Source of the DNA: Histomonas meleagridis
Lineage: Eukaryota > Parabasalia > Tritrichomonadida > Dientamoebidae
Assembly (NCBI GenBank): GCA_020186115.1
Contig: WSYJ01000060.1
Coordinates: 682,001 to 746,000 of the forward strand
Direction of reading: 5' to 3'
DNA length: 64,000 nt
Part shown: positions 1 to 62,248 of the stretch, in pieces
How the letters are laid out: every line of letters begins with the position of its first letter
Numbering within the stretch: position 1 is the stretch's first letter
The notes under the pieces: model-generated
Database searches by the model: none
The model's input: only the letters and a program-made list of their open reading frames with translations
What the model was told of the DNA's origin: nothing
Translations under genes and position numbers: made by a program

Positions 1-2193
1 TATGAAACAGCAATTGAATTTCATCGAAATGATATCTTTAAATATATTTATGAAAATAAAATTATACCAATTGACAATTTAAGTGATTTAGGAAAGATTT
101 GCATTGAATATAGTAATTTTGATATACTTTTATTTTTAGAAGAAGAACGAATGAATATTAATGATTCTTTTATAAGATGCTTAGTGTGTAGTGGAAATAT
201 TTTTATCATAGAAAAATACATTAGAAACAATTCCATTCCTCCAAATATATTAATTAATTCTGTTGAATCTGGAAATATTGAAATTGTTAAATGTTTTATT
301 GAAAAAAAAGAAGTTAATATTAATGCAAAGGATAATTTTCCTTTGTTTTTTATGTTTCTTTTTAATAATTGGTATTTTTATGCTTAACTTATGACTGCAC
401 TAATGGTTGCTTGTGAAAAAAGTTTAACTAACATAATGAAATATCTTCTTATGCAAGAAGGAATCGATTTAAATGCTCAAGATAAATATTTCAACTATTT
501 AATATTTTTTAAACAAATATGAAGTATTAAATGATAACTTGGCTTTTATTCGAATAATTTTGGACTCCACTTATGATTTCTTCTAATGAAAAAATTACAA
601 AATTAATCCTTGAGCAAAAAGATATTGATGTAAACAAGAAAAATATTTCAATCTTTTCTTTATTATTTCTTTTAAATATTTCTCGCTTGTTTATTATATT
701 TGGATTTTATTTTATAAAAATCAAACACCTCTTATGAATGCTTGTAACAATTTTCAACATAAAATAGCTGAATTACTCCTTAATCAAGAAAATATTAAAG
801 TTAATGAACAGGATGATTTTTTTGTTATTTCAATATTTAATTAAATATTCTGAAATTCTAATTTCAGATATGGAATATCTTTATAAATATTTATACAGCA
901 CTTATTTTTGCATCTACAAATAATGATACAGATATAGTAAAATTACTTCTTAGTAAAAAAGGAATAGATATTAATGTTAAAAATATAAATTTTTGTTATT
1001 AATAATGTTTATAAAATTCATATGAAATTTTTGAATATTTTTTGGGATTTATTGTAATGTTTTCAAACAGCATTACATCTCGTATCATTTCTTGAATATA
1101 TAAAAGTAGTTGAATTACTTATTAAAAAAGAAGGGATAGATATTAATGTGAAAGATATTAATTATTTTTTGTTAATGTTTTTCAAAATTTTTTAATATAT
1201 TATATGGAAATTTATCAAATTATATTGGACGCCACTATTAGAAGCTTGTAAAGAAGGATTTATTGAAGTAGTAAAATTACTTATAAATCAAAAAGAAATT
1301 GATATTAATATTCAAAACGTTAATGTTTTTTATAAGATGTTTAATTAAAAAATTTGATATTTCATTTTATTTTATGGTATTTACATATATTATTTCTCTC
1401 AGCACTGATTTGTACATGTTCAAATGGTTTCACAGATATTGTTAAACTTTTACTTGAGCAAAAGAATATTGATGTAAACCAAAGTAATATTTGATGAATT
1501 CTTAAAATGATTATAGTTTTAATTTAATATTCTAAATGGATATTTGGAATTTATATATTGAATTTTGGACACCATTAATTTTTGCAACTGCCAATGAATT
1601 TACAAACATTGTTGAATTACTACTTGAAAAAGCAGAAATTGATGTTAATGCAGAAAATTTTTTTAATTTCTTATTTGATGTTTCATCTAATATATTATTG
1701 TTGATATATTATATTTAATGTTTAAGTAATATATAATGGACTCCACTTACATTCGCATGTGATAAAGGTAATATTGATATAGTAGAAATGCTTTTAAATA
1801 GGATAGAAATTGATATCAATGCAAGAGATATTATCAGTTCATTTAATTTTATATTTCAAATAAGTATTTGGGCTTTATTTTAAAATGATTGGACGCCTCT
1901 TATGTTTGCTTGTGAAAATGGTCATGCAGATGTCGTAAAATTACTTATTAACCAAAAAAATGTAGATATTAATGCAAAAGATATTATTTCTTTTTATTAA
2001 ATGTTTACATCATAAGTTTAATGATTCAAAAATATTATTGGAATTTCTTTATTTATTCTGAAACAGCTTTAATGCATGCTTATAAAAATCAACACACTGA
2101 TATTTTTTGTTTCTTTTAGAACAAGATGGAATTGAAGTTAGTGATGACATTAATTCAAATATAAGAATGGAACAAAAAAGAAAAAAAGCTTAA
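1..2193 (+). CDS. Ankyrin/DUF3447-type protein, 5' partial, repeats split by AT-rich spacers
   Basis: The reading frame is open from base 1 and matches the middle of the gene at 26270, so the start lies outside the window. The first segment (1-333) is the DUF3447-like region plus one ankyrin repeat ending in the residues NINAKD. Ankyrin repeats follow at 394-483, 564-644, 725-814, 895-984, 1067-1156, 1229-1318, 1399-1488, 1569-1658, 1740-1829, 1893-1982 and 2063-2193. Ten of these eleven are fully open despite strong divergence. The spacers between them are 60, 80, 80, 80, 82, 72, 80, 80, 81, 63 and 80 nt and contain stops. The last repeat has a frame slip near 2113, where TTTTAG interrupts the helix. 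The stop TAATAAA overlaps a polyadenylation-like signal. Ankyrin repeats mediate protein binding; the target is unknown. It could be a decaying gene, but the open repeats argue for selection. Confidence 0.7.
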
Positions 2194-2517
2194 TAAAATA
2201 GTGCATATTTTCTTTTCCTTCTTTTATGCGTGCTCATTTGTAAAGAAAGGTTGAATTCAATTTTTTGTTATATTTATCATTATTTCTATAAATTAAATCT
2301 TGTCACTCCCATCAAAACCAGAAGGTTCAATACGTTTAATAAAAAAACAGAATTATAGCATCTGTGTATCAGAATGTAATCTGAGGGTGGGCGCAAAAAT
2401 TTGTTCTTGTGTAACGCGGCTATTGTAAATAATTATTTATTCAATTTTATTTGTATTAAAATGACATTTGATTTGGCGGTAAATTTGCCCGCTGATTCGA
2501 AGAGTTCATTATTTATC
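2194..2517. other. Intergenic, upstream of H2B
   Basis: No gene is seen. The last bases before the H2B ATG contain TTCATTATTTATC, which resembles the trichomonad initiator consensus TCAYWT (family knowledge from Trichomonas vaginalis). This supports the ATG at 2518 over the in-frame upstream ATG at 2461. Confidence 0.4.
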
Positions 2518-7600: not shown

Positions 7601-10600
7601 AATATGTTCTGATGTTTCTGATTCAGTTGTTATGATTGGAATATGTTCTGATGTTTCTGATTCAGTTGTTATGATTGGAATATGTTCTGATGTTTCTGAT
7701 TCAGTTGTTATGATTGGAATATGTTCTGATGTTTCTGATTCAGTTGTTATGATTGGAATATGTTCTGATGTTGTTGATTCAGTTGTTATGATTGGAATAT
7801 GTTCTGATGTTGTTTCTGATTCAGTTGTTATGATTGGAATATGTTCTGATGTTTCTGATTCAGTTGTTATGATTAGAATATGTTCTGAATCAGTTGTCTG
7901 ATTCAGTTGTTATGATTGGAATATGTTCTGATGTTGTGTCTGATTCAGTTGTTATGATTGGAATATGTTCTGATGTTGTTTCTGATTCAGTTGTTATGAT
8001 TGGAATATGTTCTGATGTTGTTTCTGATTCAGTTGTTATGATTGGAATATGTTCTGATGTTGTTTCTGATTCAGTTGTTATGATTGGAATATGTTCTGAT
8101 GTTGTTGTTGATTCAGTTGTTATGATTGGAATATGTTCTGAATCAGTTGTTGATTCAGTTGTTATGATTGGAATATGTTCTGATTCTGTTGCTGATTCAG
8201 TTGTTATGATTGGAATATGTTCTGATGTTGTTTCTGATTCAGTTGTTATGATTGGAATATGTTCTGATGTTGTTTCTGATTCAGTTGTTATGATTGGAAT
8301 ATGTTCTGATGTTGTTTCTGATTCAGTTGTTATGATTGGAATATGTTCTGAATCAGTTGTCTGATTCAGTTGTTATGATTGGAATATGTTCTGAATCAGT
8401 TGTTGATTCAGTTGTTATGATTGGAATATGTTCTGAATCAGTTGTTGATTCAGTTGTTATGATTGGAATATGTTCTGATGTTGTTTCTGATTCAGTTGTT
8501 ATGATTGGAATATGTTCTGATGTTGTTTCTGATTCAGTTGTTATGATTGGAATATGTTCTGATGTTTCTGATTCAGTTGTTATGATTGGAATATGTTCTG
8601 ATGTTGTTTCTGATTCAGTTGTTATGATTGGAATATGTTGTGAATCTGTTTCTGATTCAGTTGTTATGATTGGAATATGTTCTGAATCAGTTGTTGATTC
8701 AGTTGTTATGATTGGAATATGTTCTGAATCAGTTGTTGATTCAGTTGTTATGATTAGAATATGTTCTGAATCAGTTGTTGATTCAGTTGTTATGATTGGA
8801 ATATGTTCTGATGTTGTTTCTGATTCAGTTGTTATGATTGGAATATGTTCTGATGTTGTTTCTGATTCAGTTGTTATGATTGGAATATGTTCTGATGTTG
8901 TTTCTGATTCAGTTGTTATGATTGGAATATGTTCTGAATCAGTTGTTGATTCAGTTGTTATGATTGGAATATGTTCTGAATCAGTTGTTGATTCAGTTGT
9001 TATGATTGGAATATGTTCTGAATCAGTTGTTGATTCAGTTGTTATGATTGGAATATGTTCTGATGTTGTTTCTGATTCAGTTGTTATGATTGGAATATGT
9101 TCTGATGTTGTTTCTGATTCAGTTGTTATGATTGGAATATGTTCTGATGTTGTTTCTGATTCAGTTGTTATGATTGGAATATGTTCTGAATCAGTTGTTG
9201 ATTCAGTTGTTATGATTGGAATATGTTCTGAATCAGTTGTCTGATTCAGTTGTTATGATTGGAATATGTTCTGATGTTGTTTCTGATTCAGTTGTTATGA
9301 TTGGAATATGTTCTGAATCAGTTGTTGATTCAGTTGTTATGATTGGAATATGTTCTGAATCAGTTGTTGATTCAGTTGTTATGATTGGAATATGTTCTGA
9401 ATCAGTTGTTGATTCAGTTGTTATGATTGGAATATGTTCTGATGTTGTTTCTGATTCAGTTGTTATGATTAGAATATGTTCTGATGTTGTTTCTGATTCA
9501 GTTGTTATGATTGGAATATGTTCTGATGTTGTTTCTGATTCAGTTGTTATGATTGGAATATGTTCTGAATCAGTTGTTGATTCAGTTGTTATGATTGGAA
9601 TATGTTCTGAATCAGTTGTTGATTCAGTTGTTATGATTGGAATATGTTCTGAATCAGTTGTTGATTCAGTTGTTATGATTGGATTTTGTTCTGAATCTGT
9701 TGTTGTTTCAGTTTTTTTGATTTGAATTTGTTCTGAATGTTGTTTCTGATTCAGTTGTTATGATTGGAATATGTTCTGATGTTGTTTCTGATTCAGTTGT
9801 TATGATTGGAATATGTTCTGATGTTGTTTCTGATTCAGTTGTTATGATTGGAATATGTTCTGAATCAGTTGTTGATTCAGTTGTTATGATTGGAATATGT
9901 TCTGAATCAGTTGTTGATTCAGTTGTTATGATTGGAATATGTTCTGAATCAGTTGTTGATTCAGTTGTTATGATTGGAATATGTTCTGAATCAGTTGTTG
10001 ATTCAGTTGTTATGATTGGAATATGTTCTGAATCAGTTGTTGATTCAGTTGTTATGATTGGAATATGTTCTGATGTTTCTGATTCAGTTGTTATGATTGG
10101 AATATGTTCTGATGTTTCTGATTCAGTTGTTATGATTGGAATATGTTCTGAATCAGTTGTTGATTCAGTTGTTATGATTGGAATATGTTCTGATGTTGTT
10201 TCTGATTCAGTTGTTATGATTGGAATATGTTCTGATGTTTCTGATTCAGTTGTTATGATTGGAATATGTTCTGAATCAGTTGTTGATTCAGTTGTTATGA
10301 TTGGAATATGTTCTGAATCAGTTGTTGATTCAGTTGTTATGATTGGAATATGTTCTGAATCAGTTGTTGATTCAGTTGTTATGATTGGAATATGTTCTGA
10401 TGTTGTTTCTGATTCAGTTGTTATGATTGGAATATGTTCTGATAGTTGTTTCTGATTTCAGTTGTTATGATTGGAATATGTTCTGAATCAGTTGTTGAAT
10501 TCAGTTGTTATGATTAGAATATGTTCTGAATCAGTTGTTGATTCAGTTGTTATGATTAGAATATGTTCTGAATCAGTTGTTGATTCAGTTGTTATGATTG

Positions 10601-13600
10601 GAATATGTTCTGATGTTGTTTCTGATTCAGTTGTTATGATTGGAATATGTTCTGATGTTGTTTCTGATTCAGTTGTTATGATTGGAATATGTTCTGATGT
10701 TGTTTCTGATTCAGTTGTTATGATTGGAATATGTTCTGAATCAGTTGTTGATTCAGTTGTTATGATTGGAATATGTTCTGAATCAGTTGTTGATTCAGTT
10801 GTTATGATTGGAATATGTTCTGAATCAGTTGTTGATTCAGTTGTTATGATTGGAATATGTTCTGAATCAGTTGTTCTGATTCAGTTGTTATGATTGGAAT
10901 ATGTTCTGTTGTTTCTGATTCAGTTGTTATGATTGGAATATGTTCTGATGTTGTTTCTGATTCAGTTGTTATGATTGGAATATGTTCTGATGTTGTTTCT
11001 GATTCAGTTGTTATGATTGGAATATGTTCTGATGTTGTTTCTGATTCAGTTGTTATGATTGGAATATGTTCTGATGTTGTTTCTGATTCAGTTGTTATGA
11101 TTGGAATATGTTCTGAATCAGTTGTTGATTCAGTTGTTATGATTGGAATATGTTCTGAATCAGTTGTTGATTCAGTTGTTATGATTGGAATATGTTCTGA
11201 ATCAGTTGTTGATTCAGTTGTTATGATTGGAATATGTTCTGATGTTGTTTCTGATTCAGTTGTTATGATTGGAATATGTTCTGATGTTGTTTCTGATTCA
11301 GTTGTTATGATTGGAATATGTTCTGATTTAGTTTCTGATTCAGTTGTTATGATTGGAATATGTTCTGAATCAGTTGTTGATTCAGTTGTTATGATTGGAA
11401 TATGTTCTGAATCAGTTGTTGATTCAGTTGTTATGATTGGAATATGTTCTGAATCAGTTGTTGATTCAGTTGTTATGATTGGAATATGTTCTGAATCAGT
11501 TGTTGATTCAGTTGTTATGATTAGAATATGTTCTGAATCAGTTGTTGATTCAGTTGTTATGATTGGAATATGTTCTGATGTTGTTTCTGATTCAGTTGTT
11601 ATGATTGGAATATGTTCTGATGTTGTTTCTGATTCAGTTGTTATGATTGGAATATGTTCTGATGTTGTTTCTGATTCAGTTGTTATGATTGGAATATGTT
11701 CTGAATCAGTTGTTGATTCAGTTGTTATGATTGGAATATGTTCTGAATCAGTTGTTGATTCAGTTGTTATGATTGGAATATGTTCTGAATCAGTTGTTGA
11801 TTCAGTTGTTATGATTGGAATATGTTCTGAATCAGTTGTTGATTCAGTTGTTATGATTGGAATATGTTCTGATGTTGTTTCTGATTCAGTTGTTATGATT
11901 GGAATATGTTCTGAATCAGTTGTTGATTCAGTTGTTACGATTGGAATATGTTCTGATGTTGTTTCTGATTCAGTTGTTATGATTGGAATATGTTCTGATG
12001 TTGTTGTTGATTCAGTTGTTATGATTGGAATATGTTCTGAATCAGTTGTTGATTCAGTTGTTATGATTGGAATATGTTCTGAATCAGTTGTTGATTCAGT
12101 TGTTATGATTGGAATATGTTCTGATGTTGTTTCTGATTCAGTTGTTATGATTGGAATATGTTCTGATGTTGTTTCTGATTTCAGTTGTTATGATTGGAAT
12201 ATGTTCTGAATCAGTTGTTGATTCAGTTGTTATGATTGGAATATGTTCTGAATCAGTTGTTGATTCAGTTGTTATGATTGGAATATGTTCTGAATCAGTT
12301 GTTGATTCAGTTGTTATGATTGGAATATGTTCTGATGTTGTTTCTGATTCAGTTGTTATGATTGGAATATGTTCTGATGTTGTTTCTGATTCAGTTGTTA
12401 TGATTGGAATATGTTCTGATGTTGTTTCTGATTCAGTTGTTATGATTGGAATATGTTCTGAATCAGTTGTTGATTCAGTTGTTATGATTGGAATATGTTC
12501 TGAATCAGTTGTTGATTCAGTTGTTATGATTGGAATATGTTCTGAATCAGTTGTTGATTCAGTTGTTATGATTGGAATATGTTCTGATGTTGTTTCTGAT
12601 TCAGTTGTTATGATTGGAATATGTTCTGATGTTGTTTCTGATTCAGTTGTTATGATTGGAATATGTTCTGATGTTGTTTCTGATTCAGTTGTTATGATTG
12701 GAATATGTTCTGATGTTGTTTCTGATTCAGTTGTTATGATTGGAATATGTTCTGATGTTGTTTCTGATTCAGTTGTTATGATTGGAATATGTTCTGATGT
12801 TGTTTCTGATTCAGTTGTTATGATTGGAATATGTTCTGAATCAGTTGTTGATTCAGTTGTTATGATTGGAATATGTTCTGAATCAGTTGTTGATTCAGTT
12901 GTTATGATTGGAATATGTTCTGAATCAGTTGTTGATTCAGTTGTTATGATTGGAATATGTTCTGATGTTGTTTCTGATTCAGTTGTTATGATTGGAATAT
13001 GTTCTGATGTTGTTTCTGATTCAGTTGTTATGATTGGAATATGTTCTGATGTTGTTTCTGATTCAGTTGTTATGATTGGAATATGTTCTGAATCAGTTGT
13101 TGATTCAGTTGTTATGATTGGAATATGTTCTGAATCAGTTGTTGATTCAGTTGTTATGATTGGAATATGTTCTGAATCAGTTGTTGATTCAGTTGTTATG
13201 ATTGGAATATGTTCTGAATCAGTTGTTGATTCAGTTGTTATGATTGGAATATGTTCTGAATCAGTTGTTGATTCAGTTGTTATGATTGGAATATGTTCTG
13301 ATGTTGTTTCTGATTCAGTTGTTATGATTGGAATATGTTCTGATGTTGTTTCTGATTCAGTTGTTATGATTGGAATATGTTCTGATGTTGTTTCTGATTC
13401 AGTTGTTATGATTGGAATATGTTCTGAATCAGTTGTTGATTCAGTTGTTATGATTGGAATATGTTCTGAATCAGTTGTTGATTCAGTTGTTATGATTGAA
13501 TATGTTCTGAATCAGTTGTTGATTCAGTTGTTATGATTGGAATATGTTCTGAATCAGTTGTTGATTCAGTTGTTATGATTGGAATATGTTCTGATGTTGT

Positions 13601-16600
13601 TTCTGATTCAGTTGTTATGATTGGAATATGTTCTGAATCAGTTGTTGATTCAGTTGTTATGATTGGAATATGTTCTGATGTTGTTTCTGATTCAGTTGTT
13701 ATGATTGGAATATGTTCTGAATCAGTTGTTGATTCAGTTGTTATGATTGGAATATGTTCTGTTGTTTCTGATTCAGTTGTTATGATTGGAATATGTTCTG
13801 AATCAGTTGTTGATTCAGTTGTTATGATTGGAATATGTTCTGATGTTGTTTCTGATTCAGTTGTTATGATTGGAATATGTTCTGATGTTGTTTCTGATTT
13901 AGTTGTTATGATTGGAATATGTTCTGAATCAGTTGTTGATTCAGTTGTTATGATTGGAATATGTTCTGAATCAGTTGTTGATTCAGTTGTTATGATTGGA
14001 ATATGTTCTGAATCAGTTGTTGATTCAGTTGTTATGATTGGAATATGTTCTGATGTTGTTTCTGATTCAGTTGTTATGATTGGAATATGTTCTGATGTTG
14101 TTTCTGATTCAGTTGTTATGATTGGAATATGTTCTGATGTTGTTTCTGATTCAGTTGTTATGATTGGAATATGTTCTGAATCAGTTGTTGATTCAGTTGT
14201 TATGATTGGAATATGTTCTGAATCAGTTGTTGATTCAGTTGTTATGATTGGAATATGTTCTGAATCAGTTGTTGATTCAGTTGTTATGATTGGAATATGT
14301 TCTGATGTTGTTTCTGATTCAGTTGTTATGATTGGAATATGTTCTGATGTTGTTTCTGATTCAGTTGTTATGATTGGAATATGTTCTGATGTTGTTTCTG
14401 ATTCAGTTGTTATGATTGGAATATGTTCTGATGTTTCTGATTCAGTTGTTATGATTGGAATATGTTCTGATGTTGTTTCTGATTCAGTTGTTATGATTGG
14501 AATATGTTCTGATGTTTGTTTCTGATTCAGTTGTTATGATTGGAATATGTTCTGAATCAGTTGTTGATTCAGTTGTTATGATTGGAATATGTTCTGAATC
14601 AGTTGTTGATTCAGTTGTTATGATTGGAATATGTTCTGAATCAGTTGTTGATTCAGTTGTTATGATTGGAATATGTTCTGATGTTGTTTCTGATTCAGTT
14701 GTTATGATTGGAATATGTTCTGATGTTGTTTCTGATTCAGTTGTTATGATTGGAATATGTTCTGATGTTGTTTCTGATTCAGTTGTTATGATTGGAATAT
14801 GTTCTGAATCAGTTGTTGATTCAGTTGTTATGATTGGAATATGTTCTGAATCAGTTGTTGATTCAGTTGTTATGATTAGAATATGTTCTGAATCAGTTGT
14901 TGATTCAGTTGTTATGATTGGAATATGTTCTGAATCAGTTGTTGATTCAGTTGTTATGATTGGAATATGTTCTGAATCAGTTGTTGATTCAGTTGTTATG
15001 ATTGGAATATGTTCTGATGTTGTTTCTGATTCAGTTGTTATGATTGGAATATGTTCTGATGTTGTTTCTGATTCAGTTGTTATGATTGGAATATGTTCTG
15101 ATGTTGTTTCTGATTCAGTTGTTATGATTGGAATATGTTCTGATGTTTCTGATTCAGTTGTTATGATTGGAATATGTTCTGATGTTGTTTCTGATTCAGT
15201 TGTTATGATTGGAATATGTTCTGATATTGTTTCTGATTAAGTTGTTATGATTTGAATATGTTCTGAATCAGTTGTTGATTCAGTTGTTATGATTGGAATA
15301 TGTTCTGAATCAGTTGTTGATTCAGTTGTTATGATTGGAATATGTTCTGAATCAGTTGTTGATTCAGTTGTTATGATTGGAATATGTTCTGATGTTGTTT
15401 CTGATTCAGTTGTTATGATTGGAATATGTTCTGATGTTGTTTCTGGTTCGGTTGTTCTGATTGGAATATGTTCTGATGTTGTTTCTGATTCAGTTGTTAT
15501 GATTTGAATATGTTCTGAATCAGTTGTTGATTCAGTTGTTATGATTGGAATATGTTCTGAATCAGTTGTTGATTCAGTTGTTATGATTGGAATATGTTCT
15601 GAATCAGTTGTTGATTCAGTTGTTATGATTGGAATATGTTCTGAATCAGTTGTTGATTCAGTTGTTATGATTGGAATATGTTCTGAAATCAGTTGTTGAT
15701 TCAGTTGTTATGATTGGAATATGTTCTGATGTTGTTTCTGATTCAGTTGTTATGATTGGAATATGTTCTGATGTTGTTTCTGATTCAGTTGTTATGATTG
15801 GAATATGTTCTGATGTTGTTTCTGATTCAGTTGTTATGATTGGAATATGTTCTGATGTTTCTGATTCAGTTGTTATGATTGGAATATGTTCTGATGTTGT
15901 TTCTGATTCAGTTGTTATGATTGGAATATGTTCTGATGTTGTTTCTGATTCAGTTGTTATGATTGGAATATGTTCTGAATCAGTTGTTGATTCAGTTGTT
16001 ATGATTGGAATATGTTCTGATGTTGTTTCTGATTCAGTTGTTATGATTGGAATATGTTCTGATGTTGTTTCTGATTCAGTTGTTATGATTGGAATATGTT
16101 CTGAATCAGTTGTTGATTCAGTTGTTATGATTGGAATATGTTCTGAATCAGTTGTTGATTCAGTTGTTATGATTGGAATATGTTCTGATGTTGTTTCTGA
16201 TTCAGTTGTTATGATTGGAATATGTTCTGATGTTGTTTCTGATTCAGTTGTTATGATTGGAATATGTTCTGAATCAGTTGTTGATTCAGTTGTTATGATT
16301 GGAATATGTTCTGAATCAGTTGTTGATTCAGTTGTTATGATTGGAATATGTTCTGATGTTGTTTCTGATTCAGTTGTTATGATTGGAATATGTTCTGAAT
16401 CAGTTGTTGATTCAGTTGTTATGATTGGAATATGTTCTGAATCAGTTGTTGATTCAGTTGTTATGATTGGAATATGTTCTGAATCAGTTGTTGATTCAGT
16501 TGTTATGATTGGAATATGTTCTGAATCAGTTGTTGATTCAGTTGTTATGATTGGAATATGTTCTGAATCAGTTGTTGATTCAGTTGTTATGATTGGAATA

Positions 16601-18369
16601 TGTTCTGATGTTGTTTCTGATTCAGTTGTTATGATTGGAATATGTTCTGAATCAGTTGTTGATTCAGTTGTTATGATTGGAATATGTTCTGATGTTTCTG
16701 ATTCAGTAGAAATTAATTGACATTCTTCATTAATAATTATTCCCTTAATTACATTTAACGGTCCAAATGAATCATCCTTATAAAACTCTTTTGTCATCAC
16801 AGTATTTACTTTTACATTTCTAAACGCATCAGTTCCGATTGATGGCATTGATTTACCATTAAACCAAATACATTTTAGGGAAACACAATTCATAAATACA
16901 TAATTTCCTATTGTAATAACATTACTACCAATAATTACTGACTGCAATTTAGTACATTGATAAAACGCCATATTCATAATTGTACTTACATTATCTCCAA
17001 TTACAACTGATTCTAATTTGGAACAATATCTAAAAGCAGAATCACCAATAGTTACAATTGAATTCGGAATAGTAAATTCTGTTACAACTCCAGTTGGACA
17101 ACCAATAACTTTTGTAATATCTTTGTTATAAAGAATGCCATCATTTTCATAATTTGAATAATATTTGTTTTCTTTCATAACTTGTATCGATTCTTTAATG
17201 CCCAAAAATGCATAATCGCCAATTGTTGTAACTGTTTTTGGTATTATTATATTCTTTATTGAACACCCATGGAAAGCATATCTTCCGATTGTAACAACAT
17301 TATCTCCAAGTGTAACAGACTCCAATTTAGAACAATAATAAAATGCATATTCACCAATTGTAATAACATTATTTGTAATAATTACTGATTCGATTGTAGT
17401 GCATCGATAGAACGCCATGTTCTCAATGGTTTCAACTGAGTTGGGGGTAACAATTTCTTTTGCATATTCTGTTGGACAACAAATAACTTTCGTAATATCT
17501 TTGTTATAAAGAATGCCATCATTTTCATAATTTGAATAATATTTGTTTTCTTTCATAACTTGTATCGATTCTTTAATGCCCAAAAATGCATAATCGCCAA
17601 TTGTTGTAACTGTTTTTGGTATTATTATATTCTTTATTGAACACCCAGAAAATGCATATTTTCCGATTGTAACAACATTATCTCCAAGTGTAACTGTTTC
17701 TAAATTAGAAGATTTATAAAATGCATGATCACCAATTGTTTTAAGTTTTGATCCATTAATGTTTGCTGATTGCAATTTAATACAATACGAAAATGAATTT
17801 CTACCAATTGTGCTGATGTTGTTACCAAATATAACTGATTTTAAATTTATACAGTGATAAAATGCAATTTCTCCGATGGTGACTAACGAAGGGCCGAGGT
17901 CAACTGTCGTTAGATTTGTCCAATCTTTGAAAGAGTTCTTTGGGATTTCCATTATTCCATTACCAATCAATATGTGTAAAGTAACATCTTTATAAACATC
18001 ATTTGCGAAATCATTTGGTGACGTTATAGTAAGTGTTCCAGTCGTTACATCAAATGCTTCAAATGAGTTTGTGAAAAGCATTATAAAAACAAAAGGAACA
18101 AATGTTTTCAAACTAAAGTTTGAATTAGAATTATGATTTCCTTTAGCCAATAATGCGATTACAATGGAAAACATAACCATACAAAGAACAATCTTTGAAT
18201 AACTTGCAAATATATTGGTAAATTGAAAATTGCAAAATCGATCAAAGTAAGAGTTCATTATGATTGATTTATATGTTGGCTTGCATTGCCCTTGTATCTG
18301 CATGCTTTGTGTCAATGGAGAAAAAAGGGCAATCACCAAAAAATTGGTTACCATAAAAAATAGTGGCAT
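4675..18369 (-). CDS. Giant BspA-like LRR surface protein with 14-residue repeat stalk and membrane anchor (frame broken in assembly)
   Basis: The start ATG is at 18369 (MPLFFM...). The N-terminus has two hydrophobic stretches, the second (near 18081) ending MLFTNSFEA like a signal peptide, so translation could begin later. BspA/LRR_5 repeats follow, with the pattern TIGEYAFYYCSKLESVTLG, to about 16730. Next are roughly 260 copies of a 13-14 residue unit with core SEHIPIITT (5590-16713), then 12-residue SNTFTLSNRFTP repeats. The protein ends with a transmembrane helix (IIGIVCSVIAIVL, then Ile-rich), and a short acidic tail ending NTSNFDL. Trichomonad BspA-like proteins are cell-surface adhesin candidates, and the Thr-rich stalk is probably O-glycosylated. 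At least a dozen single-base frame changes occur inside the repeat; as assembled, translation from the ATG stops at 15658. Net length is still 3n (4565 codons), so the true product may be one very large protein. Confidence 0.7.
5110..5570 (-). repeat. 36-bp tandem repeat encoding SNTFTLSNRFTP
   Basis: On the plus strand a 36-bp unit with GATGGTGTAAATCGATTAG recurs about ten times with almost no change in the centre and more change at both edges. On the minus strand it codes the Thr/Ser/Asn-rich 12-mer next to the membrane anchor of the giant surface protein. The nearly identical central copies suggest recent unequal exchange. Confidence 0.85.
5580..16713 (-). repeat. About 11.1-kb minisatellite of 42-bp (and 39-bp) units inside the giant surface gene
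   Basis: Units encode SEHIPIITT followed by either ESTTD (unit type A), ESETT (type B) or the shorter ESET (type C). Types A and B come in blocks of about three each across 11-15 kb, a higher-order repeat. The edge near the membrane anchor (5.6-7.9 kb) is richer in short and degenerate units. Several one-base insertions recur in identical context. Confidence 0.9.
17115..17646 (-). repeat. In-frame internal duplication (378-bp offset) in the LRR domain
   Basis: About 150 bp at 17115-17268 are nearly identical to 17493-17646, encoding the same KENKYYSNYENDGILYNKD segment twice, 126 codons apart. The offset keeps the frame, so this is a recent duplication of a leucine-rich-repeat block. Confidence 0.8.
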
Positions 18370-26269: not shown

Positions 26270-29200
26270 ATGAAAAAAGAAAAACAAACCCACAAAAATG
26301 AATGGGAAGAATTTCTATCGATTAATCATATGGCCTTTGGTCTGGATAAAAGAAGTGTAGAACAACCAACAATAATTGACAAGCTTACTAAATCTTACCC
26401 ATTATCTATTAACTTAGTTATAAGCCAATTAACATATATATATTTTTCTGTAAAAATGAGTGCGTTTGATTTATTTTTAAATTTATTACAAGAAGATGAT
26501 ATTTTTAAAACTAACGATCAGAATAAATCAATTTTTATTGAAGTGTTCTCACAGTTTCTTTTGAATAAAAACACTCAAGAATCATATTATATTCTTGAGA
26601 ACATGATTGAATATAATTTAATTGATTCAAAAATTATTCAAAAAAAATTCATACCATATTTTGTTCATTATAAGTCTAAAGAAGAAATAATAAATGATAA
26701 CGAAAATTATATTTTTTTCCATCATATCATAGAAAATTATGACGAACTATCAAAGAATGATTGGGAACTTCATAAGAAATATATAAAAGAAGGACATAAC
26801 CCAAATGAAATTGCAAAAATAATTCGAAATGATGAAATCGAAAAACTTCAGGAAATATCAACACAAAATAATTTTGATTTCAATCAAAAAATTGTTCCAT
26901 CACTTTATGAAAGATGTGATTTTATTAATCAAAGAAATGTTACATTAATTAATTATTCAGCATTTTTTGGATCAGTTAAAAGTTTTAAATATTTACTTAT
27001 GAATGGAGCAAAATTAGATAAAACAGGTAAATATGCAATTGCAGGAGGAAACATCGAAATCGTTCATTTATGCGAACAAAATCATTCAGCATTTGAAGAT
27101 TCATATGAAATAGCAATCAAATTTCATCGAAATGATATCTTTACATATATTTATGAAAAAAACATTGAAGGAACTAAAAATTTAGAACAATTAGGAAGCT
27201 TATGTATATTATATAATAATTTTGAAGTTTTTTCATTTTTGATTGAAGAAGGTATGAAAATTAATGATTGCATTATTAATGAAGCTGCAAAAATGGGAAA
27301 TATGTTTTTGGTCAAATATTTTCTTGTAAAAAATGATATCTCTAAAAATATGTTAGTTTACTCATCAGAATCAGGAAATATTGAACTTGTAAGATATGTT
27401 TTAGATCAAAAAGGAATTGATATCAATGCTAAAGATATTTATTTGTTTTATTTGAAATTGATTTTAATAACATAACAATTCAAATTAATATTTGGAAATT
27501 ATTTAAATTATTTAATACGGCAATTATGTTAGCATCTCAAAAAGGTTATACTGAAATAGTTAAGTTACTTCTTGATCAAAATGAGATTGATATCAATGCT
27601 AAAAATATTTATTTGTTTTATTTATTATTTATTATAACAATTTAATGCTTCAAATTAATATTTGAACATTATTTAAGTTATTTAATACTGCACTTATTTA
27701 TGCATCTTTTAATGGTAATGTTGAAATAGTTGAATTGCTTCTCAAACAAGAAGGAATTGATGTTAATGCTAAGGAAATTTATATGCTTTATTTAAAGTTT
27801 TTTTAAATAGTTTTGGATTATTTTTTGGAAATATATGAAATTTATTTTGTTAATTTTTATCAGCACTTGCGGGTGCATCTCAAAAAGGTTATACTGAAAT
27901 AGTTAAGTTACTTCTTGAACAAAAAGATATCGATATAAATGATAAAAATATTTATTTGTTTTGTTTGCTATTTATTTTAATAATTTCATATTTCAAAATA
28001 ACATTTGGAATTTATTTAAGTTATTTAATACTGCGCTTATGAATGCATCTCATAAGGGTTACATAGAAATCGTTAAATTACTTCTTAAACAAAAAGATAT
28101 CGATATCAATGCTATAAATATTGATTTGTTTTATTTAATATTTATTTTAATAATATATTGTTTCAAAACTGTATTTGGTAATTAATCAAAGTATATTCAA
28201 CAGCACTTATGCAAGCATCTGAATATGGATATACAGAAATAGTTAAATTATTTCTTAAACAAAAGGGAATTGATGTTAATATAAGAAATGTTTAGATGTT
28301 TTATTTGAAATTTGTTTTAATAATTTGATGTCAAATCTTAAAATTTGAAATATTTTTGATTTATTTGAAACAGCACTTATTATAGCATCCTTAGATGGCC
28401 GAACAGAAACAGTTAAATTGTTGCTTGAACGTAAAGGAATTGATATTAATGCTAAAGAAATTTATTTGTTATCTTTAAAATTCAACTTAATAATTTAATA
28501 TTGCAATACAAAATTTGGAAATTTTTAAAATTATTTAAAACTGCACTTATTGCTGCATCTGAAAATGGTCATATTGAAGTGATTAAATTACTTTTGAAGC
28601 AAGAAGGAATAGATGTGAATGTTAAAGATATTTTTTTGTTTAGTTTGATATCAATTTTATTGACTTTATATAACATAATAATATTTGGAAATGATTTAAA
28701 TTATTTTTTACAGCAATTATGTACCCAGCTCAAACTAATTATATTGAAATAGTCCAATTATTTCTTAAACAAATAGATTTTTACATAGATGTCAATGCTA
28801 AAAATATTTATTTATTTTGTTTGATATTTATTTTAATAATTTTATATTTCATTTAGATACTTGGAAATTAATAATAACATTTGCAACAGCTCTTATGTTA
28901 GCAATTGATAACGGAAACATAAAAATAGTTAAATTACTTCTTGAACAAAAAAGTATTAGTGTAAATGATTCTGATATCTATTTGTTTTATATGATATTTA
29001 TTTTATTAATTTTGGATTTCAAAATAATTTTTGGAATTTACACATTTTATTTGATACGCCACTTATATACGCATCTCAAAATAATCGAATAGAAATAGTC
29101 AAATTACTTCTTGAACATAAAGGAATAAATGTTAATGCTAAAAATGTTTTTTTATTTCTCTCAATTTTTATAATAAAAATTTGAAATTTTAATGAATTCT

Positions 29201-29309
29201 ATGGTGCATATTTATATTATTTAAAACAGCACTTATGGTTGCGTCTGAAAATGGTTACACAGAAATTGTTCAATTAATTGGCACAAAATGCGAAAAATAT
29301 TTTGATTAA
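26270..29309 (+). CDS. DUF3447/ankyrin protein with eleven frame-breaking spacers
   Basis: The first exon-like segment (26270-27436, 389 codons from ATG) holds the DUF3447-type domain common in trichomonad ankyrin proteins (for example SLYERCDFINQRNVTLINYS) and initial repeats ending GIDINAKD. Ankyrin segments follow at 27517, 27687, 27860, 28030, 28200, 28370, 28540, 28710, 28886, 29056 and 29226. Nearly all are exactly 90 nt and read TALMxAS..GHxEIVKLLLxQKGIDINAK. All are open; the last ends in YFD and a TAA. Spacers are 80 nt in ten cases and 83 in one, giving a 170-nt period. Taken literally the frame closes at 27475 after a hydrophobic tail; if spacers are removed the product has about a dozen clean repeats. 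The binding partner is unknown. Confidence 0.7.
27437..29225 (+). repeat. 170-nt periodic array: 90-nt ankyrin unit plus 80-nt AT-rich spacer
   Basis: Spacers lie at 27437-27516, 27607-27686, 27777-27859, 27950-28029, 28120-28199, 28290-28369, 28460-28539, 28630-28709, 28806-28885, 28976-29055 and 29146-29225. Most start ATTTATTTGTTTTATTT and carry TTTGGA with the A at spacer position 60. The ankyrin halves vary in sequence as diverged coding repeats do. Confidence 0.85.
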
Positions 29310-29645: not shown

Positions 29646-30854
29646 ATGTTAATTTTACCAATGGTGTTGCCTCTTCTAATACTACTTTCATGTACTGGGA
29701 TTTTGTTTGCATTAGTATATCAGAAGGATATTGATCCATATCAATTTTTTTACGAAATCACATCTACAGATCAAAACCTTTTCAAGACATATTTAATTCT
29801 TTTTATTTTTCTTTTATTTTTTGCATACGGAATTCAAAGATTTTTCATTAGGAGAATAAAACTTGTAGAGGCTTCATTTGTTATATTCCATTTTATTAAT
29901 ATGATTATCACAGTCACTTTAACTATAGATTCTAACTTAAGTAACGTTCTGCAAAACTATCATGAGGTGTTTACCAAGTTAATTATTCCACTTATTTTTT
30001 ATCAATTAAATCTAAATTACCAAACCAAGATTCTTTCTATTATTACAGAAATGAAAAAAGATGCCAAACACATCGCAGGCATTGTCACAGGTCTTACTTT
30101 TACCCTTGGACTCATATGCACTTACATACAATTTGTTAATTCTGATACCAAAATTGACATAATGTCACATATAATCTTAAAACATTCACAAATACAAATA
30201 TCTTATAACATTATTAAGACAATGTTATATGTTCTTCATATCAATTTTTTTTATCAACAATTCCATCGAATTGACTGTTTTTTGTCGACAGATTTTATAT
30301 TTTATTTGTTACCAATTTTTTATGATTTTTATCATTATTTCTTTAAATATCATTTCATAATATTGACCAACATTATATTTTTATTTATATCATTTCGCGA
30401 ATTCTTTAAAGATATTTCATTTATATTAATTGTGAATAACTTAGAGATCGCAGAAGAAATTGATATAGACCAACAAAAGAAATGTAAAATATGTAAAAAA
30501 TATTTTAATAATGATGAAGAAATCATTAAAAAGTTATCATGTGGACATTGTTTCCATGAAATGTGTTTAATGAAATCTGTTATCATGAATAAAAAATGTC
30601 CGATTTGTAATTGTAATATTGAAAACATAAAGAAAAAAGAAACAAAAATTAATAAAAAATTAGTTGAAGAAAATAAGAAAAAAGAAAATGTTATTGTCGT
30701 TGTTGATGATGATAAAGATAAAGATAAATGTGAAGATAAAAATGAAATACAGAAAATGACAGACGAAGAATTAAATGAAAGATTAAATAAATTGAACGAA
30801 AAATTAGAGAGCTTAAAAATTAAAGCAAAATCTTCTGTTGAAAATAAATGTTAA
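29646..30854 (+). CDS. Multi-pass membrane RING-H2 protein, HRD1-like ubiquitin ligase candidate
   Basis: The 402-residue protein has about six hydrophobic helices in its first 270 residues and a cytosolic RING-H2 around residues 285-325: CKICKKYFNNDEEIIKKLSC, then GHCFHEMCL and CPICNC. A Lys/Glu-rich coiled tail ends it. The membrane domain followed by RING-H2 is the layout of HRD1 and gp78, ER-associated degradation ligases, with the usual His-His pair present. The start chosen is the ATG at 29646; the frame extends 18 nt further upstream only with GTG. Other membrane RING-H2 ligases cannot be excluded. The 3' flank is AT-rich and unremarkable. Confidence 0.65.
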   Translation: MLILPMVLPLLILLSCTGILFALVYQKDIDPYQFFYEITSTDQNLFKTYLILFIFLLFFAYGIQRFFIRRIKLVEASFVIFHFINMIITVTLTIDSNLSNVLQNYHEVFTKLIIPLIFYQLNLNYQTKILSIITEMKKDAKHIAGIVTGLTFTLGLICTYIQFVNSDTKIDIMSHIILKHSQIQISYNIIKTMLYVLHINFFYQQFHRIDCFLSTDFIFYLLPIFYDFYHYFFKYHFIILTNIIFLFISFREFFKDISFILIVNNLEIAEEIDIDQQKKCKICKKYFNNDEEIIKKLSCGHCFHEMCLMKSVIMNKKCPICNCNIENIKKKETKINKKLVEENKKKENVIVVVDDDKDKDKCEDKNEIQKMTDEELNERLNKLNEKLESLKIKAKSSVENKC

Positions 30855-57056: not shown

Positions 57057-58066
57057 GATGCTTCCTCAACACCAAAAAGAATTTGTATCATTTATTAAAT
57101 GGCAAATCGGACAAAAAATATTTGATATTAATGGTAAATACGTTTTTCATGAATATTGAATGTTTAATAATTTTTTTTGGAATTAATATAAAATTAATGA
57201 AACAGCACTTCATTGGGCAACACGCCAAGGTCATTCTGAAGTTACAAAAGTTCTTCTTGAACAAGAAGGAATTGATATTAATGCTAAAGATATTTATTTG
57301 TTTTATTTAGAATTTATTTTAATAATTTTATATTTCAAAATAATATTTGAAAATTATTTAAATTATTTTGGACAGCACTTATGTTTGCATCTAGAAATGG
57401 TCATACAGAAATCGTTAAATTACTTCTAGAACAAAAAGGAATTGATATTAATGCTAAAGATATTTATTTGTTTTATTTATAATTTATTATAATAATTTAA
57501 TATTTCAAAATAATATTTGGAAATTATATAAATTATTTTACACAGCACTTATTAAAGCATCTTGGTTTGGTCATGCAGAAACAGTTAAATTACTTCTAGA
57601 ACAAAAAGGAATTGATATTAATGCTAAAGATATTTATTTGTTTTATATAAAATTTATTTCAATAATTTTAAATTTCAAAATAATATTCGAAAATTATTTA
57701 AATTATTTTGGACAGCACTTATGTTTGCATCTAGAAATGGTCATACAGAAATCGTTCAATTACTTCTAGAACAAAAAGGAATTGATATTAATGCTAAAGA
57801 TATTTATTTGTTTTATATAAAATTTATTTTAATAATTTTATATTTCAAAATAATATTTGGAAATTATTTAAATTATTTAAAACAGCACTTATTAGAGCAT
57901 CTGAAAATGGTCATACAGAAATAGATAAATTACTTCTTGAACAAGAGAATATTGATATCGATACTAAAAATATTAATTTGTTTTGTTTCAAGTATTTTCA
58001 AATAATATGATATTTCATATAAACATTTGGAATTACTTTCAAAATATATTGAAAGTGATAATATAA
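57057..58066 (+). CDS. Short ankyrin protein with spacer-interrupted repeats
   Basis: A short first exon-like segment from the ATG at 57057 encodes MLPQHQKEFVSFIKWQIGQK and ends FDIN at 57132. A 69-nt spacer follows. Five ankyrin repeats come next at 57202-57291, 57372-57461, 57542-57631, 57712-57801 and 57882-57971, all exactly 90 nt and open (for example TALMFASRNGHTEIVKLLLE). Four spacers of exactly 80 nt separate them; a sixth spacer (57972-58051) ends 20 nt after TGGA and is followed by KVII and a stop. Internal repeats are nearly identical, so this is a recent expansion. The layout (short first exon, then ankyrins) matches the minus-strand gene at 62248. If the spacers are real introns this is a complete small gene of about 190 residues. 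It may instead be a fragment next to the microsatellite. Confidence 0.55.
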
Positions 58067-59925: not shown

Positions 59926-62248
59926 TTACTTTTTGTTCAAACTTAAGAAGAAAAATGTGTTTTGGCAAATTAGTACTAAAATTATTATTGCAAATAATAA
60001 TTTCGATGATACTTTTCTTGAACATGTTTTGATTCCATCTGTTTGTATACATTTATCTCCTGTTTGAACACATTTATCATCTGTTTCTATGCTTTTATCA
60101 TCTTTTATGACAGCAGAAATGTTTTTTTCATCATCATAAAAAAATTTCTCTTTTCTCATTTCTATTGGATTCTGAATGTTTCTTTTTGCTTCGGAAAATG
60201 ATAAATTATTATTTTCATTGAACTTATTTTGAAATAGTTTCATGACGTCATCTCTTTGCGTTCTATTTGAACTGAAACCATTGAACCCCATTGAATTTCC
60301 CGAATTTTTATTTGTTTTCTTACCAGAATTTTCAACAGCTCCTTTTTTGCGAAGGAGTTCAATTATTTCTGTATGACCATTTTCAGATGCTAATATAAGT
60401 GCTGTTTTAAATAATTTAAATAATTTCCAAATATTATTTTGAAATCCAAAATTATTAAAATAAATATAAAATAAAACAAATAAATATTTTTAGTATTAAT
60501 ATCAATTCCTTCTTGTTCAAGAAGTAATTGAACTATTTCTGTATGACCTTTTAAAGATGCCCACATAAGTGCTGTGTAAAATGTTTGAAGAAATTTCCAT
60601 TTATTATTTTGAAATATTAAATAATTAATATGTATTCTAAACATAAGAAAGTAATACTTTTCATATTGACATCAACTAATTTTCGTTCAAGGAATAATTT
60701 TACAATGTCAATATGATCATAATCACATGCAAGCATAAGTGCTGTTTGAAATAATTTTAATAATTTCCAAATATTATTTTGAAATCCAAAATTATTAAAA
60801 TAAATATAAAATAAAACAAATAAATATTTTTAGTATTAATATCAATTCCTTCTTGTTCAAGAAGTAATTGAACTATTTCTGTATGACCTTTTAAAGATGC
60901 CCACATAAGTGCTGTGTAAAATGTTTGAAGAAATTTCCATTTATTATTTTGAAATATTAAATAATTAATATGTATTCTAAACATAAGAAAGTAATACTTT
61001 TCATATTGACATCAACTAATTTTCGTTCAAGGAATAATTTTACAATGTCAATATGATCATAATCACATGCAAGCATAAGTGCTGTTTGAAATAATTTTAA
61101 TAATTTCCAAATATTATTTTGAAATCCAAAATTATTAAAATAAATTCCAAATAAAACAAATAAATATTTTTAGCATTAATATCAATTCCTTCTTGTTCAA
61201 GAAGTAATTGAACTATTTCTGTATGACCTTTTAAAGATGCCCACATAAGTGCTGTGTAAAATGTTTGAAGAAATTTCCATTTATTATTTTGAAATATTAA
61301 ATAATTAATATGTATTCTAAACATAAGAAAGTAATACTTTTCATATTGACATCAACTAATTTTCGTTCAAGGAATAATTTTACAATGTCAATATGATCAT
61401 AATCACATGCAAGCATAAGTGCTGTTTGAAATAATTTTAATAATTTCCAAATATTATTTTGAAATCCAAAATTATTAAAATAAATTCCAAATAAAACAAA
61501 TAAATATTTTTAGCATTAATATCAATTCCTTCTTGTTCAAGAAGTAATTTAACGATTTCTGTATAGCCATTTTGAGATGCATAAATAAGAGCTGTACAAA
61601 ATGTTTGAAGTAATTTCCATTTATTATTTTGAAATAGAAAATAGTTAATAAATTTTATAAATATAAGAAAGAAATACTTTTTATATTGACATCAACTAAT
61701 TTTCGTTCAAGGAATAATTTTACAATGTCAAATTGACCAAATTCACATGCAAGCATAAATGCTGTATCAAATGATTTGTATATTTTTTAATATTTTTGAA
61801 ATATAATTAAGTAATTTGAATAAATATCATATAAAACGAATAAATATTTCGAGCATTAACATCAATTCCTTTTTGTTCAAGAAGTAATTTAACTGTTTCT
61901 ATGTGACCATTTTCAGATGCGCGCATAAGTGCTGTATAAAATAATTTAAATAATTCCCAAATATTATTTTGAAATAAGAAATAAAACAAATAAATTCTAA
62001 ATAAAACAAATAAATATCTTTAGTATTAACATCAACTTTTTCTTGCTCTAGGAGTTGTTTTACAATATCTGTAATACCGTTTCCAGCTGCTTGTATAAGT
62101 GGAACTCGAAATTATTTAAGTAATTCCCAAATATTATAAAATATCAAAATCTTATAATAATTATCAAATAAAAGAAAACAATTTTTAGGTCATTGATATG
62201 GTTTCTTTTTTTCTCAATGAAAAGACTAGTTTCTAGTTGGTTTGACAT
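59926..62248 (-). CDS. Ankyrin protein with C-terminal membrane anchor, eleven spacers
   Basis: A complete-looking gene. ATG at 62248 opens a 22-codon first exon (MSNQLETSLFIEKKRNHIND). Eleven ankyrin segments follow, starting at 62105, 61935, 61765, 61595, 61425, 61255, 61085, 60915, 60745, 60575 and 60405, in a strict 170-nt period. The last ankyrin (TALILASENGHTEIIELLRK) runs on uninterrupted into a 130-residue tail ending with a transmembrane helix (LLFAIIILVLICQNTFFFLS) and LNKK. The first spacer is 77 nt; the other ten are 80. Every coding segment that I read is open, while the spacers carry stops. AACGGTTTTG lies 22 nt before the ATG. This combination of promoter, start, clean segments and a functional-looking tail argues against a pseudogene. 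As a tail-anchored ankyrin protein it would sit on a membrane facing the cytosol. Confidence 0.75.
60406..61425 (-). repeat. Three tandem copies of a 340-bp unit (two ankyrins plus two spacers)
   Basis: Copies 61086-61425, 60746-61085 and 60406-60745 are nearly identical, each made of ankyrin types ending VDVNMKS and GIDIN(A/T)KN with their 80-nt spacers. 340 equals 2 x (90+80). The duplication carried spacer and coding parts together. Confidence 0.9.

Follow-up and report, generated by a model that had tools for sequence, protein, structure and literature searches.

A 64,000-nucleotide (nt) stretch of the genome of Histomonas meleagridis, a trichomonad that parasitises poultry (contig WSYJ01000060.1, positions 682,001 to 746,000; below, the window) carries on its minus strand, at 59926..62248, an ankyrin-repeat gene whose coding segments are separated by spacers. 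The layout extends far beyond this gene: hundreds of ankyrin-repeat units in H. meleagridis are interrupted by non-coding inserts that, with few exceptions, are 17 bases long. The parts of the gene are listed below from its 5' end, with [17] for a 17-nt insert.

59926..62248, minus strand: whole gene, with a 20-codon first exon, 11 ankyrin segments, 11 spacers and a 129-residue tail
62189..62248, minus strand: first exon, ATG and 19 codons (M S N Q L E T ... N D), assigned by reading
62106..62188, minus strand: spacer 0, 83 nt, 4 x 17 + 5 x 3; measured and split by hand, with an ambiguous first half
62016..62105, minus strand: ankyrin segment 1 (VPLIQAAGNGITDIVKQLLEQEKVDVNTKD)
61936..62015, minus strand: spacer 1, 80 nt, [17] aga [17] ctt [17] ggg [17] tat
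61846..61935, minus strand: ankyrin segment 2
61766..61845, minus strand: spacer 2, 80 nt, codons gat, aat, aaa and gat on the positional grid, split by hand
61676..61765, minus strand: ankyrin segment 3
61596..61675, minus strand: spacer 3, 80 nt, [17] ata [17] tct [17] gga [17] tgt
61506..61595, minus strand: ankyrin segment 4
61426..61505, minus strand: spacer 4, 80 nt, [17] gga [17] tgg [17] gga [17] caa
61336..61425, minus strand: ankyrin segment 5
61256..61335, minus strand: spacer 5, 80 nt, [17] aga [17] aat [17] gga [17] tac
61166..61255, minus strand: ankyrin segment 6
61086..61165, minus strand: spacer 6, 80 nt, [17] gga [17] tgg [17] gga [17] caa
60996..61085, minus strand: ankyrin segment 7
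60916..60995, minus strand: spacer 7, 80 nt, [17] aga [17] aat [17] gga [17] tac
60826..60915, minus strand: ankyrin segment 8
60746..60825, minus strand: spacer 8, 80 nt, [17] tat [17] tgg [17] gga [17] caa
60656..60745, minus strand: ankyrin segment 9
60576..60655, minus strand: spacer 9, 80 nt, [17] aga [17] aat [17] gga [17] tac
60486..60575, minus strand: ankyrin segment 10
60406..60485, minus strand: spacer 10, 80 nt, [17] tat [17] tgg [17] gga [17] aaa
60316..60405, minus strand: ankyrin segment 11, a capping repeat continuing into the tail
59929..60315, minus strand: C-terminal tail, 129 residues, with a hydrophobic stretch close to the end, assigned by reading
59926-59928, minus strand: stop codon

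Each ankyrin segment is 90 nt long, and the segments rotate through the three frames, 11 of 11 being open in the ankyrin frame. A preliminary description of the gene had noted 11 open 90-nt segments and stop-containing spacers of 3n+2 nt, which agrees with the lengths found (83 nt once, 80 nt ten times); the short first exon and the tail, there called a transmembrane tail, are likewise seen on reading. The third loop codon is Gly in nine of the ten 80-nt spacers; it is Lys in spacer 2 by the hand grid reading, the script favouring a different split. Spacer 0 is clearest from its 3' end, where hand decomposition gives the codon CGA, the 17-mer AATTACTTAAATAATTT and the Gly codon GGG.

An 80-nt spacer is composed of four AT-rich 17-nt inserts and four single codons between them, i.e. 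68 nt of non-coding sequence and 12 nt that are kept. When 80-nt spacers from many arrays are aligned, hypervariable triplets stand out at spacer offsets 17, 37 and 77, and a Gly triplet at 57, within otherwise conserved AT-rich sequence. Read as codons, the loop triplets give D-x-x-G-x-T-A-L, the ankyrin hallmark, and the repeat with these codons counted has 34 residues, the same as the uninterrupted repeats of this genome, in which the gap is 12 nt. The preliminary description had proposed the removal of about 71 nt per spacer, with at most 5 nt kept on each side. This proposal was wrong in that the 12 kept nt lie dispersed inside the spacer, and a single 71-nt intron per spacer is rejected because coding triplets lie within it. 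The observation behind it is nevertheless real and stronger than had been stated, the unit being 17 nt and not 71. The inserts share the consensus R-T/A-T-T-A...A-T-T-T (logo R1 W2 T3 T4 A5 ... A14 T15 T16 T17). Stops occur in 106, 161 and 65 of the 163 distinct 80-nt spacers in frames 0, 1 and 2, respectively.

The grid of 17 + 3 nt holds over most of the spacers collected. Between 40 and 110 nt, 273 spacers were counted, with lengths of 80 (181), 63 (38), 83 (13), 81 (12), 60 (6), 100 (4) and 66 nt (3) and a few others; the count takes the overlapping loci L022 and L030 twice, and leaves out the overlapping loci L001-L008, ankyrin hits below 8 bits and gaps outside this range. Each of these lengths except 81 can be written as 17a+3b, with a and b both from 3 to 5, and several 81-nt spacers contain, by hand, one 18-nt element or an extra A in an A run. 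A script decomposed 223 of the 244 distinct spacers into 17-mers and no more than six codons; in 215 of these, adjacent elements are always separated by a codon. Single inserts are present or absent as units. Element 1 is cleanly absent while its codon is retained in 28 distinct 63-nt spacers among the 244, single spacers are devoid of element 4 or of an inner element, and one junction in L032 has no insert at all (a 12-nt gap of four codons). The 63-nt length was found in 17 locus strands and the 80-nt length in 31. Loss of an insert with its codon kept would be the expected trace of intron loss via processed RNA, and might also come about by a DNA route. Straight translation through the 63-nt spacers, the length of which is a multiple of three, was also considered and was rejected, an in-frame stop being present in 19 of the 30 distinct ones. 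Two irregular forms may be mentioned here. A 100-nt spacer (L011 +4436) has two identical tandem copies of element 2 with the codon TAT, which looks like duplication of a 20-nt module, and three spacers of 71-72 nt (L020 +5427, L023 +4624 and window 1157-1228) have one element of apparently 8-9 nt, either a decayed insert or a second permitted length.

The loop codons are under coding constraint. Only two of the 652 loop triplets of the 163 distinct 80-nt spacers (31 locus strands) are stops, versus 35 +- 4 in shuffles that exchange third bases between spacers at a given site (minimum 23 in 2,000 trials). Stops so far below the shuffled level show that the third base is read, with an exact boundary; were the removed block displaced by a single base, the third base would no longer matter, and the avoidance of stops thus fixes the insert boundaries. 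The most diverse of the 78 triplet windows in the spacer are those at offsets 37, 77 and 17, with 1, 1 and 0 stops, respectively. Triplet 1 is rich in N/K/D/E, triplet 2 in Y/N/D/E/W and triplet 4 in N/K/W/D/E/R/Q/Y (n=163), and the third triplet is Gly, as in the ankyrin hallmark, in 134 of the 163 spacers. Codon usage in the loop for K, E, N, D and Y resembles that in the segments (AAA 69/69 vs 691/719; AAT 93/98 vs 586/625). Between copies, second bases differ by 0.07 across nine core codons and by 0.54 across four surface codons, compared with about 0.21 within the elements, the two codon classes having been picked after seeing the data (0.18 for all 30 codons together), and amino-acid entropy is highest at segment positions 5, 8 and 9 and at three loop codons. 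This variation between core and surface is the pattern of a functional binding surface and not a simple purifying signal. At the residues that are diversified in engineered ankyrin binders, this surface is hypervariable.

The same inserts recur throughout the genome (43.28 Mb in 121 contigs were searched). The 20-mer composed of AAT and element 1 has 1,939 matches at no more than one mismatch, versus 5 for the reversed control. In the DNA examined, chains of at least three elements at 20-nt steps number 171 in ankyrin arrays and one outside, versus none in one Markov shuffle per strand, and the lone outside chain is by reading also an array, cut by the edge of locus L011. Twenty ten-kilobase loci were drawn from places matching element 1, so that the sample favours typical arrays. 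The N-terminal domain preceding the arrays has open frames of at least 391 codons in all the matches listed. The window itself contains three further arrays.

1..2240, plus strand: sister array A, diverged, with 11 spacers of 60-82 nt
26270..29300, plus strand: sister gene C, a 401-amino-acid (aa) N-terminal open reading frame (ORF) running into an interrupted array; tandem repeat at 27409-29276
57253..58017, plus strand: sister array B, a 170-bp tandem repeat with interrupted ankyrin segments

By hand, eight of the 11 spacers in array A split fully into 17-mers and codons, with GGN as the third codon in 10 of 11, some spacers having been split differently by the script.

Twelve ordinary ankyrin loci were examined, of which L038-L043 came from a Pfam search and L046-L051 are small stretches with short open frames. 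Six of them (L040, L041, L046, L049, L050 and L051) have inserts at ordinary junctions, one to three per junction and nearly always at the same codon boundaries; in L038 a typical array lies next to an uninterrupted gene, and no insert was found in the other five (L039, L042, L043, L047 and L048). Many junctions in ordinary ankyrin loci have 12-nt gaps without an insert, and others have gaps of 29 (one insert), 46-47 (two) or 63 nt (three). Single 17-nt inserts are seen in L041 (gaa aat gga [17] aat; aaa ttt gat [17] atg), in L050, after the Gly position, and in L051, before it, whereas a junction of L049 reads aaa [17] ttt [17] ggt [17] caa. GGN occupies the third loop codon also in L040, L041, L046 and L049, though not at all junctions. 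Of 16 junctions looked up, 15 were located and split, three of them with an 18-nt element; the 31-nt one of L050 holds a 16-nt element or misfits. In L046 and L049, by eye diverged relatives, inserts stand at matching sites with little shared sequence (one L046 junction was split by hand, against the script). Position and length of the insert thus stay the same while its sequence drifts, as with introns.

In the DNA examined, no insert was found outside ankyrin loops. The protein-kinase genes examined had no 17-nt inserts, with internal stops in seven of 133 matches (132 of 635 first-look candidates scored), and for LRR_5 (202 matches; 150 of 3,722 candidates scored) one match with a stop was found among those listed. 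A scan of this DNA for single inserts that rejoin two open frames gave three cases, all in ankyrin genes, versus one in six column-permuted controls; the script had placed the L051 case outside ankyrin, which on reading is an ankyrin junction. One query or pattern each against IMG/VR and GTDB contigs found no relatives.

The inserts are devoid of known splice signals. Among 334 distinct elements, GT..AG, AT..AC and ACTAAC were found in none, GTATGT in one and CTAA in seven, and shifting the block by 1-3 nt yields GT..AG in one of 652 instances. The 17-mers thus have neither the GTATGT-like 5' site nor the CTAAC-type branch and 3' AG of trichomonad spliceosomal introns, and the absence of GT-AG ends and of an ACTAAC-type branch site, pointed out in the preliminary description, holds well beyond the gene described there. 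The 17-mers do not fold, their minimum free energy being above -0.5 kcal/mol in 99% of the 334, and 80-nt spacers, of which 40 of the 163 were folded, show no excess of structure over mononucleotide shuffles (mean z +0.35). We know of no catalytic core of group I or group II introns as short as 17 nt. Canonical introns of this genome have the form GTATGT...CTAACACATAG in the two protein kinase genes that were read (L044 and L045), inside the motif ALLA/GYLPFDD. A CTAACACATAG site lies inside six of the seven kinase matches with internal stops and 46 bases past the end of the seventh, and these stops are therefore ascribed to canonical introns. The motif CTAACACATAG has 76 matches, part of them in a tandem repeat, versus 21 for its reverse; the T. 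vaginalis motif ACTAACACACAG has 3 versus 2 and is not the form used in this genome. Annotation of the virulent strain of H. meleagridis contains 573 introns, at most one per gene, according to excerpts of the genome paper (PMC8529796), the main text of which is without the word "ankyrin". As a side observation, CTAACACATAG recurs at steps often near 825 bp in a tandem repeat family (G000:C9:2518-24247, C84:1707642-1717695, C55:913585-928639 and C53:618886-620502).

The arrangement is probably best explained by ultra-short, phase-0, intron-like inserts, which would be taken out one by one, as we infer at the RNA level, before translation of an ordinary ankyrin-repeat protein. The loop D-x-x-G-x of each repeat would be split by up to four 17-nt inserts, each lying exactly between two codons, and the codons x, x, G and x would consequently be lone 3-nt exons. 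The inserts would be excised individually from the transcript, about 44 times in the gene at 59926..62248, by a relaxed mode of the spliceosome or by an endonuclease together with an RNA ligase as candidate machineries. The genome has two RtcB matches, and RNA_ligase family matches at three places; these are possible players, which offer an opportunity and no evidence. An intron explanation, likely as judged from the sequences, retains the non-canonical intron of the preliminary description in being intron-like and not GT-AG, whereas the analogy with euglenids drawn there fails, since the 17-mers do not fold and the spacers sampled are not more structured than their shuffles. We lean slightly towards the more specific picture of a trichomonad with few GTATGT...TAG introns and a second class of 17 nt, in phase 0, with RTTT...ATTT and single-codon exons, confined to the ligand-facing ankyrin loop.

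Several points weigh against removal of the inserts. Searches of 5.8 billion proteins, which may or may not include products of Histomonas complementary DNA (cDNA), gave no joined product among the matches listed (for one query, 120 of 354). Related ORFs from short contigs stop at or within the first insert. Among the distinct spacers, 21 of 244 are off the 17 + 3 grid, and a few inserts have 16, 18 or 8-9 nt. The ratio of non-synonymous to synonymous differences (pN/pS) over whole segments is 0.88 among close repeats, with an out-of-frame control lower at 0.30; because the out-of-frame value lies below the in-frame value, this test is no evidence for purifying selection. To our knowledge, there is no precedent for a spliceosome acting on 17-nt introns with 3-nt exons and without GT-AG.

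The relatives found in the protein search deserve closer description. P0001-P0018 (262-517 residues, from short contigs) are 36-55% identical to the N-terminal ORF of the window, and P0003, P0005, P0007, P0009 and P0014 end one residue beyond the NAKD position. Among the five proteins that continue for at least 21 residues past NAKD, Gly is found by hand at the grid site of an 80-, 63- or 83-nt spacer in P0001, P0015 and P0016, and not in P0011 and P0021. Contigs derived from cDNA would mean that the transcripts in question retain the inserts, and contigs derived from DNA that the layout predates H. meleagridis. Two of the proteins, P0002 and P0015, were compared with the genome; their best-scoring matches there have 60% and 51% identity, respectively, and such low identity points for these two to another species or to a gene outside the compared DNA. 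The KANK1 ankyrin protein is listed among quantified H. meleagridis proteins in excerpts of a proteomic report (PMC10063853).

The arrays could alternatively be dead or dying, an intact ankyrin family having been hit by 17-nt insertions that spread by tandem duplication, with only the N-terminal ORF expressed. In line with this are open N-terminal ORFs of about 400 codons, which here as well as in relatives terminate at the first insert or inside it, and also the homogenisation of some arrays by recent duplication (340-bp units, 93%), the pN/pS of 0.88 and the stops in 19 of 256 segments, five of which are, by eye, otherwise normal repeats with a single stop. We consider such decay unlikely. 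In a pseudogene stops and frameshifts would fall regardless of codons, whereas the two loop stops compare with 35 by shuffling and 36 under one element-like mutation dose, and the 7% of segments with a stop compare with 20-56% expected for a quarter to one element-like neutral mutation dose. Moreover, second bases of the core are about three times more conserved than the elements and surface codons more than twice as variable (classes chosen post hoc), and insert length stays at 17 nt despite widely differing sequences. The statement of the preliminary description that the gene does not look like random decay is borne out in this respect, the spacers acting as non-coding inserts in a coding gene. 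DNA-level excision and recoding, which the same description offered as alternatives, are kept here as less good fits. With inserts kept in the mRNA, the ribosome would have to skip them by programmed translational bypassing, as in T4 gene 60 or Magnusiomyces mitochondria. The take-off codon equals the last insert triplet in seven of 652 instances, which is chance (7.5 +- 2.2 when shuffled), no insert of 652 starts with a stop codon, the take-off codon is hypervariable and the inserts are without structure; about forty-four skips per nuclear gene would demand near-perfect efficiency. Since Magnusiomyces inserts are not always matched, the failure of the codon match bears less on bypassing of the yeast type, and bypassing as a whole is judged improbable.

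Each spacer might also be one ordinary spliceosomal intron with cryptic splice sites, and canonical-looking introns do exist in kinase genes of this genome. This is very unlikely in view of the elements (GT-AG 0/334, no ACTAAC, one GTATGT), and because the spacer triplets are under coding constraint, an 80-nt intron would remove the hallmark Gly and three variable loop residues. Elimination of the inserts from DNA in some life stage, like internal eliminated sequences of ciliates, would be in line with the element consensus, which starts and ends with ATTT, a short direct repeat. The assembly of the parasite still contains the inserts, however, both copies of ATTT lie within the 17 nt that must go, and we know of nothing that suggests programmed DNA elimination in parabasalids, so that this explanation is hardly credible.

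Excision as intron-like units has partial parallels in known systems. Uniform ultra-short spliceosomal introns of 16-17 nt in mikrocytids, 15-16 nt in heterotrich ciliates and 18-21 nt in chlorarachniophyte nucleomorphs have been described, with 224 introns in 179 genes of Mikrocytos reported as spliceosomal (excerpts of PMC10245619). The Histomonas inserts share with them a narrow, near-uniform length at the short limit and their large number per genome, but they are without GT-AG, chained with single codons between, in phase 0 and found only in one ankyrin loop. T. vaginalis belongs to the same phylum, and its introns are of types A and B, type B being about 23-25 nt, thymine-rich and in some cases located in ankyrin genes; recognisable 5' and CTAA-type branch/3' motifs are present (excerpts of PMC12316389). 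The 17-mers resemble type B in being short, uniform and T-rich. On the other hand, they are without 5' and branch motifs, and chains with single-codon exons are not described for T. vaginalis in these excerpts. The ends of nonconventional introns in euglenids and diplonemids are joined by base pairing, and their median lengths are 91 and 37 nt in two diplonemid species (excerpts of PMC6221363 and PMC12621601). Non-canonical ends and short direct repeats at the ends are shared features, as far as these excerpts go, whereas those introns fold and are longer, and the 17-mers are unstructured, with no base pairing of this kind. In bypassing, T4 gene 60 uses matched GGA codons and a stop after the take-off codon, and the inserts of Magnusiomyces are mitochondrial, a take-off match being not always present (excerpts of PMC5009743). 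Non-coding blocks disrupt coding frames there as in Histomonas, where, in contrast, the inserts are nuclear, of nearly fixed length (17 nt) and without a codon match. In comparison with Pfam Ank proteins, the Histomonas repeats share the hallmark and the 34-residue length and differ in gene layout only.

Among the open-access papers listed in literature searches, none describes such inserts in Histomonas or in ankyrin genes in its title or the opening of its abstract. If the inserts are excised, this genome would have hundreds of repeat units in which they form chains of 17-nt elements with exons of one codon, a layout to which we found no counterpart and which would test the lower limits of intron and exon definition or reveal non-spliceosomal RNA processing in a parabasalid. 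Their removal, which would demand a very precise step, would restore a large ankyrin family for which there is no room in an annotation limited to one intron per gene. If they are skipped by the ribosome instead, nuclear bypassing would operate on a scale not known to us from other systems. Since each variable loop residue sits in its own 20-nt module (17 + codon), module duplication or gene conversion could reshuffle the binding surface.

Upstream of the ATG at 62248, the Myb-type promoter motif reported in the preliminary description is present as AACGGTT, yet it says little, because AACGGTT/AACCGTT within 60 nt is no commoner before array genes (1 of 21) than before other ORFs (3 of 51). 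TCAYT, which we take to resemble the trichomonad initiator motif, lies within 60 nt before the ATG in 11 of 21 array genes versus 6 of 51 other ORFs. Directly behind array C, a 402-aa ORF (29646-30854) with several hydrophobic stretches and, by eye, a C-terminal RING-like cysteine pattern is probably a separate gene. The window also contains an 11-kb minisatellite (5596-16707) of 266 copies of 42-bp units; on the minus strand it codes for repeats of the type ESTTDSEHIPIITT, which follow an LRR-like ORF (15658-18369), and its open frames are short, possibly broken by changes in unit length or by assembly. Elsewhere in the genome, a protein-kinase match (G000:C78:376002-376739) lies within an uninterrupted, titin-sized open frame of 22,955 codons.

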